From an uncultured Aliiroseovarius sp. (lineage in GTDB: Bacteria > Pseudomonadota > Alphaproteobacteria > Rhodobacterales > Rhodobacteraceae): DNA of 64,000 bases. The notes beneath the pieces were generated by a model. That model was given only the letters and a program-made list of their open reading frames with translations, searched no databases and was not told where the DNA came from. The position numbers and the translations under genes were made by a program. The DNA is taken from the NCBI RefSeq assembly GCF_947497285.1, contig NZ_CANMFT010000008.1, positions 124,001-188,000 on the forward strand, in the 5' to 3' direction. This document shows positions 44,284 through 47,040 of this stretch, in pieces. Every line of letters starts with the position of its first letter. The stretch's first letter is position 1.

Positions 44284-44575
44284 GACAACGATGATTTGCA
44301 TGGCCGCGGTCTGATGCAGCCTTGGCTGAGACGCACAGGCGTCGGGCTGCCCGTTGGCGGAGCCAGGCGACCGAGACCGCGCAACAGTCGCAAAACTCGC
44401 CTTCGCTTTCCGATAATTGCGCCGCTCAAGCCAAATGCTGCACGAAAATTTCAAAAAAAGCGCCCCTGCGACACTTTATTCACCCATTTCGCGGTTGACG
44501 CCCTTTGCCCCCCCTCATAATGTCCCGCGCACGTAGTCAAGAAGCCCGCTTGGGCAAGGCATAGGAAAAGTTGCA

Positions 44576-44623
44576 ATGGGCAGCGTCCTCGTACTTGTAG
44601 AAATATGGCGCATGGGCCGGTAA
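44576..44623 (+). CDS. ilvB attenuator leader peptide MGSVLVLVEIWRMGR
   Basis: Codons ATG GGC AGC GTC CTC GTA CTT GTA GAA ATA TGG CGC ATG GGC CGG TAA; AGGAAAAG upstream; 6 of 15 residues are Val/Leu/Ile. Confidence 0.88.
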   Translation: MGSVLVLVEIWRMGR

Positions 44624-44650
44624 CGGAACCCTTTAGGTCCCCCATGCGCC
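44607..44650 (+). promoter_or_regulatory. Putative antiterminator stem of ilv attenuator
   Basis: ggcgcatggg (44607-44616) is the exact reverse complement of cccatgcgcc (44641-44650). Confidence 0.75.
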
Positions 44651-44673
44651 CCCGTAAAACCGGGGGCTTTTTT
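44648..44673 (+). terminator. Attenuator terminator upstream of ilvB
   Basis: gcccccg-taaaac-cgggggc then tttttt. Confidence 0.9.
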
Positions 44674-44705: not shown

Positions 44706-46460
44706 ATGACGCGTCAGATAACCGGAGCGAAAATGGTGGTTCAAGCCCTGAAGGATCAGGGTGTGGACACGGTATTCGGCTATCCAGGGGGTGCCGTCCT
44801 TCCGATCTATGACGAAATATTCCAGCAAAATGATATTCGCCACATTCTTGTGCGCCACGAACAAGGGGCTGTGCACGCGGCCGAAGGCTATGCGCGTTCG
44901 ACCGGCAAACCCGGCGTCGTTCTGGTAACCTCGGGCCCCGGTGCGACAAACGCGGTGACCGGGCTGACCGATGCGTTGCTGGATTCGATCCCGCTTGTGG
45001 TGCTGACCGGACAGGTGCCGACCTTCATGATCGGCACGGACGGGTTTCAAGAGGCGGACACCGTCGGCATCACCCGCCCTTGCACCAAACACAACTGGCT
45101 GGTGAAAGAGACAGACAAGCTGGCGGAAACGATCCATCAGGCGTTTCACGTCGCAACCTCGGGTCGCCCGGGGCCAACGCTTGTCGATATTCCGAAGGAT
45201 GTGCAGTTCGCCACCGGCACTTATACACCGCCCGCGAAGGCCGAAACCGGTCACTACGCGCCCCGTCTGCGTGGCGACACAGAGGCGATCACCGCGTTGG
45301 TCGAAGCCATGGAGACCGCGAAACGTCCGATCTTCTATACCGGCGGCGGCGTGATCAACTCGGGCCCGGAGGCCTGCCAGCTTCTGCGCGAACTTGTTGC
45401 CGCGACGGGCTTTCCCATCACCTCAACCCTGATGGGTCTGGGGGCCTATCCCGCGTCAGGCGAACATTGGCTGGGCATGTTGGGCATGCATGGGCTTTAT
45501 GAAGCCAACATGGCGATGCATGATTGCGACCTGATGATCTGCGTCGGCGCACGTTTTGATGACCGGATCACCGGGCGGATGGATGCGTTCAGCCCCGGAT
45601 CGAAAAAGGCGCATATCGACATTGATCCCAGCTCGGTCAACAAGGTGATCCATGTGGACATTCCGATCATCGGCGATGTCGGGCATGTGCTTGAAGACAT
45701 GTTAAAAATCTGGAAGGCGCGCGGCCGCAAAACCAATGGCGAGGCGCTGGCCGGATGGACCCAACAGATTGCAGACTGGCGCGCGCGCAACTGCCTGTCC
45801 TACCGCAACTCGGACGAGATCATCCAGCCACAATACGCTTTGGAACGGCTGGAGGCGCTGACCAAAGGGGCGGATCGCTATGTCGCCACCGAAGTTGGCC
45901 AGCACCAGATGTGGGCGGCTCAATTTCTTGGCTTCGAGGAACCGAACCGCTGGCTGACATCGGGTGGCCTGGGAACCATGGGCTATGGTTTGCCCGCCTC
46001 TCTGGGCGCGCAAATTGCCCATCCCGACGCCGTGGTCATCAACGTGGCCGGCGACGCCAGCTGGCTGATGAACATGCAGGAAATGGGCACCGCCGTTCAG
46101 TTCCGCGCGCCCATCAAGCAGTTCATCCTGAACAACGAACGCCTGGGTATGGTGCGCCAGTGGCAAGAGCTGTTGCACGGCGAACGCTATAGCCAAAGCT
46201 GGTCGGAAAGCCTGCCTGATTTCGTGAAGCTGGCCGAGGCATTTGGCTGTAAAGGTCGACAAGTGTCGGACCCGGCCGAGCTGGACGACGCCATTCAGGA
46301 AATGCTGGATTATGACGGCCCGTTTATTCTGGATGTGCTTGTCGAAAAGCACGCGAACTGCTTCCCGATGATCCCGTCGGGCGAACCGCACAACAAGATG
46401 CTTCTGGGCGAAGCCGAGACGCAGGGCGTCATCGGTGCCTCGGGCGCGACGCTGGTATAA
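44706..46460 (+). CDS. ilvB: Acetolactate synthase large subunit
   Basis: [67 protein letters not shown]; ThDP motif [12 protein letters not shown]. Confidence 0.97.
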
Positions 46461-46473
46461 GGAGGGCTGAGAC

Positions 46474-47040
46474 ATGTCTGCACTGAAGATCAAAAAAGGC
46501 TCGTCACGCAAATCGGCTTATGACCTGCGCGATCCCAACTCCGACGTGGTGGAAAGCCATACACTGGCCTGCGTCGTGGACAACGAAGCAGGCGTTCTGG
46601 CCCGCGTTATCGGTCTTTTCGCCGGTCGCGGCTATAACATCGAAAGCCTGACCGTGGCCGAAGTTGACCACAAGGGCCATCTGTCGCGGATCACCATCGT
46701 GACCACCGGCACACCCGCAGTGATCGAACAAATCAAGGCGCAACTGGGCCGCATCGTGCCCGTGCATGAAGTGCATGACCTGACCGTCGAAGGCCGTTCG
46801 GTCGAACGCGAGCTTGCCTTGTTCAAAGTCGAGGGCTCTGGCGACAAACGGGTCGAGGCCTTGCGCCTGGCCGACATTTTCCGCGCCAATGTCGTCGATA
46901 GCACGCTGGACAGTTTTGTCTTTGAAATCACCGGGACAACCGAAAAAATTGATGCGTTTGCTGACCTGATGCGCCCGTTGGGCCTGATCGAGGTTGCGCG
47001 CACCGGCGTTGCGGCCTTGTCGCGTGGCGCTCTGGTCTGA
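46474..47040 (+). CDS. ilvH: Acetolactate synthase small subunit
   Basis: HTLACVVDNEAGVLARVIGLFAGRGYNIESLTVAEVDHKGHLSRITIVT: ACT domain. Confidence 0.96.
   Translation: MSALKIKKGSSRKSAYDLRDPNSDVVESHTLACVVDNEAGVLARVIGLFAGRGYNIESLTVAEVDHKGHLSRITIVTTGTPAVIEQIKAQLGRIVPVHEVHDLTVEGRSVERELALFKVEGSGDKRVEALRLADIFRANVVDSTLDSFVFEITGTTEKIDAFADLMRPLGLIEVARTGVAALSRGALV

Follow-up and report, generated by a model that had tools for sequence, protein, structure and literature searches.

A conserved leader upstream of ilvB in Rhodobacterales is probably a ribosome-mediated attenuator and has a sister element upstream of Bcr/CflA-type transporters

Attenuators of alphaproteobacterial ilvB and ilvIH were reportedly predicted in 2004 by Vitreschak and colleagues (FEMS Microbiol Lett 234:357), for the same gene and bacterial class as the locus described here and with the same placement of a leader rich in branched-chain amino acid (BCAA) codons ahead of the attenuator. 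Attenuation of ilvB is thus already known as a kind since that prediction, and the present leader is an instance of it. An ‘ilvB leader peptide’ is named as previously described in a passage of PMC1273637, and an ‘ilvIH cis regulatory’ element is listed for S. meliloti in a passage of PMC2573895. In Rhodobacterales itself, the uORFC-8-2 motif 5′ of cysS is likewise a candidate for uORF-based ribosome-mediated attenuation; it has Cys codons, another gene and another structure, and the relevant text of that paper describes no ilvB motif of Rhodobacterales (PMC8632094). Our literature search for ilv attenuators in Rhodobacter or Rhodobacteraceae found nothing specific. With the classical enterobacterial attenuators (trp, his, ilvGMEDA, ilvBN and leu), the element described below shares a control-codon leader peptide, a predicted alternative pairing and an intrinsic terminator.

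The leader lies on the forward strand of the window, the whole 64 000-nucleotide stretch of Aliiroseovarius DNA that was analysed. Direct reading gives a 15-codon ORF encoding MGSVLVLVEIWRMGR, from the ATG at 44576 to the TAA at 44621–44623, with a purine-rich ribosome binding site (AGGAAAA, 44563–44569; AAGGAG-like in relatives) whose GGA ends approximately 9 nt 5′ of the ATG. The position, frame and control codons of this ORF are kept in relatives. Codons −12 to −8, counted from the stop, are GTC CTC GTA CTT GTA (Val-Leu-Val-Leu-Val, 44585–44599), and further on the codons for W-R-M-G contain arm A (GGCGCATGGG, 44607–44616), the exact reverse complement of arm B (CCCATGCGCC, 44641–44650). 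Two hairpins between the arms appear in single-sequence folds: P2 (44617–44626, CCG-GUAA-CGG), which holds the leader stop codon inside its GNRA-type loop, and the weak P3 (44628–44638, ACC-CUUUA-GGU), which on inspection of the alignment is visible by eye in many relatives and absent in others. An intrinsic terminator follows at 44648–44673, with a 7-bp G-C stem (44648–44654/44661–44667), a loop of 6 and U6 (T6 at 44668–44673). The gene for the acetolactate synthase large subunit, ilvB (44706–46460, 584 aa), assigned by homology and with its closest relatives in Aliiroseovarius, starts 33 nt 3′ of the T tract; next comes an ilvH-type small subunit gene (46474–47040, 188 aa), named from its position and its sequence as an ORF. 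The sequence-only reading on which this analysis is based had reported the leader ORF with its ribosome binding site and five Val/Leu codons, the perfect 10-nt complementarity of the arms, and a terminator at 44648–44667 plus U6 overlapped by arm B. All of these are present, the overlap covering three bases only (44648–44650).

Upstream of the leader, a predicted promoter (44495–44523) was read directly as TTGACG (44495–44500) and CATAATGT (44516–44523). Of 105 relatives, 104 have TTGAC no more than 115 nt 5′ of where the leader starts, compared with 8% of shuffles, and the CTCATAATGTC of the promoter is kept in close relatives; a strict sigma-70 scan called no promoter at 44495–44523. From this promoter-like site, the terminated RNA would be approximately 144 nt long. 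Positions 44530–44555 of the window are an Aliiroseovarius-specific insert in the 5′UTR, whose AAGCC(CC) is complementary both to the 3′ arm of the terminator and to the U tract.

When the region is shuffled 5000 times, only 8 shuffles contain any arm pair of 10 nt with a loop of comparable size. Taken alone, the sequence has an ordinary folding energy (z = −0.76); the case for the element rests on conservation. We built a covariance model from 95 of approximately 110 ilvB-upstream loci with the recurring arrangement; the relatives in this alignment were picked by ilvB similarity, and close relatives are consequently over-represented. Searching with the model located the element in 224 of 246 genomes of Rhodobacterales, representing 96 of the 101 genera, a count that is less biased than the alignment and does not by itself prove the identity of the downstream gene. 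In the ilvB loci inspected, the element is directly 5′ of ilvB, and the genome of the window has one true copy. The ordinary folding energy is in keeping with a chance match of leader ORF and arms in a GC-rich intergenic region, but given the rarity of the arm pair in shuffles and the presence of the element across the genera of the order, this reading is already refuted by conservation, and its probability is practically nil. The sequence-only reading had made its case depend on conservation in related genomes, and leader, arms and terminator proved to be conserved across Rhodobacterales. Most absences in the order come from a single genus (g298, at least 12 sampled genomes), and both Paracoccus ilvB loci examined (L076 and L078) lack the element; in Paracoccus and g298 the regulation has apparently been lost or replaced.

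Four divergent ilvB leaders (L165 in G024, L166 in G034, L150 in G028, and L046) have almost wholly diverged in sequence and still retain, ahead of a terminator, a hairpin that encloses or adjoins the stop codon. In the divergent leaders L150, L166 and L108, an A:B-like helix scores better than shuffles; in L066 it does so only weakly, and in L165, L107, L056 and L029 it is no better than shuffles. Because these last four fail, we claim only partly that the architecture is kept without the sequence. At gathering scores, Rfam reports only a tRNA in the window, and the element is without an Rfam family of its own. A match to isrK at relaxed scores was a chance likeness to the 20-nt terminator and was dropped, and model matches above approximately E = 1e-4 (e.g. 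L134–L147 and L224) were dropped as ordinary terminators.

In the alignment of 95 leaders, pairing reaches 98.4% over the structure taken without overlaps (A:B core, P2 and terminator), and seven pairs are changed on both sides compared with 1.3 in shuffles (0/500). A wider alignment that includes transporter leaders (see below), fitted to the covariance model, has nine such pairs compared with 2.5 (0/500). The terminator stem covaries in relatives, and an intrinsic terminator is thus predicted between the leader and the first structural gene. The A:B helix is 9 bp long in nearly all relatives, with the tenth pair (44607/44650) kept in 61 of 94. At its ninth pair, in alignment column 48 facing the terminator, 94 of 95 rows have G, whose partner in arm B is C; this column is a third codon base, and the amino acid there varies (W, T, K, R, M and S among others). 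Both arms vary less than pairing alone would demand, so the covariation evidence is weaker for this stem. Stem covariation in relatives, as envisaged by the sequence-only reading, is accordingly borne out overall but not for the A:B core, which varies little and has three of its seven pairs invariant in the 95-leader alignment.

P2 has a nearly constant core, and its partners change together in 32 variants. Compensatory examples include GUCUC-UAAC-GAGAC (L058), GUCU-GUAA-AGAC (L106), CAGAUGU-GAGAA-ACAUCUG (L066) and GGCGGC-GUA-GCCGCC (L111), and the stem length summed over variants is 130 compared with 108 in shuffles (0/2000). P2, which does not figure in the sequence-only reading, is on this comparative evidence a conserved, covarying hairpin predicted to enclose the leader stop.

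For the analysis of control codons, leaders were anchored on arm A and the in-frame stop alone and were not chosen by their Val/Leu/Ile content. Among 93 distinct ilvB leaders, Val, Leu or Ile occupies each of codons −12 to −8 in 91–99% of cases; at codons −7 to −1 the share is 10% or less. The predicted leader ORF, short as it is, thus carries tandem codons for the product of the pathway, as a BCAA attenuator requires. Codon choice is biased too: GTA makes up 46% of leader Val codons versus 4% in the genes of the window, and CTA 24% of leader Leu codons versus 2%. This enrichment of rare Val and Leu codons fits selection for stalling, beyond the amino acids alone. The last control codon is constant at −8, arm A starts in codon −5 and the stop falls at the end of arm A/P2. 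With stalled and stop-codon ribosomes placed according to the size of the ribosome footprint, the control codons appear to be positioned such that a stalled ribosome would free arm A and a ribosome at the stop codon would cover it.

In trp-type attenuators, the antiterminator takes the whole terminator arm. Here, arm B and the terminator overlap by 2–3 nt in 105 of 115 ilvB loci; the overlap is absent in seven divergent loci, and one further locus has no clear overlap. The best single fold combines a shortened A:B stem with the full terminator: for the window, seven A:B pairs with the 7-bp terminator stem give −31.8 kcal/mol versus −30.3 kcal/mol for ten A:B pairs with a shortened terminator, so that the two are nearly equal and 1.5 kcal/mol favours the full terminator. 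On equilibrium folding, the terminator foot is approximately 86% formed when the ribosome edge lies just before arm A and A:B is free, compared with 98% when the ribosome is at the stop codon. Until the 3′ arm of the terminator has been synthesized, A:B pairing occupies the first terminator bases with probabilities of 0.99, 0.99 and 0.64, and with the whole leader free A:B pairing is still 0.94–0.96 (average over 95 sequences). The folds of these 95 sequences also revealed no conserved upstream segment with which arm A could form a 1:2 protector or pause stem, which a classical trp-type four-segment attenuator (1:2, 2:3, 3:4) would be expected to have. The modelled element thus differs from the classical enterobacterial attenuators in that arm A pairs arm B directly, the overlap with the terminator is 2–3 nt instead of a whole shared arm, and the stop codon lies in a hairpin loop. 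The description of the locus as complete, classical attenuation is not supported as it stands, on three grounds, namely the missing 1:2 stem, the small overlap and the 86% versus 98% formation of the terminator foot. What survives of the proposed geometry is a BCAA-codon leader with arm A just 3′ of the control codons and arm B at the terminator foot, all of it conserved; the equilibrium folds do not support classical mutual exclusion.

Given the small overlap and a terminator that survives equilibrium folding, A:B would not exclude the terminator in the simple manner of a trp or his antiterminator, and the switch would have to act kinetically or sterically, or else be weaker than the classical type. 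The likeliest route by which A:B would suppress termination is a kinetic or steric effect. The antiterminator could instead be another pairing, for instance between AAGCCC in the 5′UTR and the terminator 3′ arm GGGGCUUUU, in which case attenuation would be real and A:B would serve as a spacer or pause hairpin. In the fold of the full predicted transcript, the AAGCCC segment (approx. 44540–44548) does pair with the 3′ arm of the terminator, and most Aliiroseovarius leaders retain AAGCC. The other genera inspected, however, lack the insert; there, TTGAC sits approximately 25 nt closer to the leader and the rest of the element is conserved. As a general antiterminator this pairing was rejected, since the insert is limited to the genus; we regard it as very unlikely to be the antiterminator, and the insert as possibly an extra layer or a coincidence.

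Ribosome-mediated transcription attenuation of ilvB-ilvH by way of A:B is the best explanation of the leader and, in our judgement, a highly probable one. The parts, their conservation, spacing and covariation and the codon bias were observed; the ribosome positions, the direction of the response and the kinetic or steric step are inferred, as follows. Transcription would start near 44530, and a ribosome would translate the 15-codon leader. With ample Val, Leu and Ile, it would quickly reach the UAA at 44621, cover arm A and open P2; arm B would then be unpaired, the terminator would fold and RNA polymerase would stop in the U tract, leaving the RNA of approximately 144 nt. Were charged Val-, Leu- or Ile-tRNA scarce, the ribosome would stall on codons 4–8, three codons before arm A, with its leading edge at or just short of arm A, and arm A, P2 and arm B could fold together as a single element, ahead of synthesis of the 3′ arm of the terminator. 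A:B would take the first 2–3 bases of the terminator stem and abut the rest, so that closing of the stem foot may be delayed or sterically hindered in the RNA exit channel: the pre-formed helix would have to be partly undone, in or beside the channel, before the terminator hairpin could close. Transcription would then continue into ilvB-ilvH. With no 1:2 protector stem, this model predicts readthrough when the leader is untranslated, unlike trp.

Outside Rhodobacterales, strong matches to the model (L123–L133, E-values from 1e-17 to 3e-6) are not 5′ of ilvB. Where it is readable (L124 and L126–L132), the nearest downstream frame is an MFS transporter; for L123 and L125 it was not established. 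Two of these transporters were tested, and both score above the NCBIfam curated cut-off for TIGR00710 (Bcr/CflA family efflux MFS transporter). Nine genomes from a different order have the same pair of leader and transporter. Two model matches each occur in eleven Rhodobacterales genomes, the second copy being 5′ of a Bcr/CflA-type transporter in ten of them; the first copies in these eleven were not assigned to ilvB one by one. L196–L203 and L214–L223 are likewise transporter-leader loci. The transporter leaders are Val-rich with like ends, as in MTPNNIVVVSERCMVR, MNTGVVLVGSRRMDR and MLPLNFVVVGERCMVR, each running to its stop codon, and finish in R-[CRM]-M/L-[VDG]-R-like cores. They are poorer in branched-chain residues (mean 4.7, of which 3.3 are Val), and their last Val is about the same distance from the stop as in ilvB leaders. 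That a homologous element elsewhere keeps the same spacing lends support to attenuation.

The Rfam family RF02502 (Atu_C8), entered as a Rhizobiales sRNA, gives the only meaningful Rfam match to the window, a full-length, same-strand one of 17.3 bits against a curated gathering score of 50 bits, and at that score the window element is not a member; G000 has no RF02502 match. Six matches above the cut-off fall in one alphaproteobacterial family, that of G143 (L111 and L225–L229), and all six have a Val-containing leader ORF, a stop hairpin, a terminator and the same type of transporter directly 3′. Atu_C8 and the window have a GCGCAUGGGC/CCCAUGCGC stem in common, and the strong matches carry Val-rich leader ORFs with an R-[MV]-G core as well as the stop-codon hairpin and terminator. 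They differ in that Atu_C8 precedes a Bcr/CflA-type transporter, not ilvB, and that its arm B and terminator are approximately 7 nt apart (L111). Because leader ORF, terminator and downstream transporter recur in all six matches, the Atu_C8 ‘sRNA’ in these genomes would be the terminated leader of the transporter gene, and not an sRNA gene in its own right. An RNA-seq study of A. tumefaciens had earlier remarked that 32 reported sRNAs resemble segments of long 5′UTRs, and C8 is not named in the relevant text of that paper (PMC3738593).

The cataloguing of this related element as an sRNA bears on a further reading, in which the terminator in the ilvB leader is constitutive and the conserved structured RNA is a stable small RNA with a role in trans, the peptide being secondary. 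It would account for a best fold that holds A:B and the terminator at once and for arms near-invariant in sequence, and a trp leader peptide of S. meliloti is described as acting in trans in a passage of PMC7298713. Five tandem Val/Leu/Ile codons, fixed spacing and rare-codon enrichment nevertheless require translation to matter, and the element keeps its fixed place before ilvB. We consider this reading improbable, and a trans role would in any case be compatible with attenuation.

We think it somewhat more probable than its opposite, judging from sequence comparison, that one ancestral leader-attenuator family, with conserved GCGCAUGG/CCAUGCGC arms, a stop-codon hairpin and an abutting terminator, has two unrelated targets in the Alphaproteobacteria, namely ilvB in Rhodobacterales and, in other groups, a Bcr/CflA-type MFS transporter, with both in some genomes and Atu_C8 as its terminated leader. 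A literature search for Bcr/CflA with a leader peptide found nothing relevant, and no description of the stop-codon hairpin, the minimal overlap or the shared element before a transporter was found in a search that most subscription papers lay outside. What began as a prediction from one sequence is now an RNA element with good support throughout almost an entire bacterial order, so far without an Rfam family, and the comparison suggests that Rfam lists as a small RNA what is in fact the stopped leader of a transporter gene. This raises the questions of how a barely overlapping antiterminator works and why the same switch precedes a Bcr/CflA-type transporter. If the common ancestry is true, A:B would act by abutting the terminator and not by replacing it, and the Val-rich leader would link the transporter to branched-chain amino acid (or translation) status.
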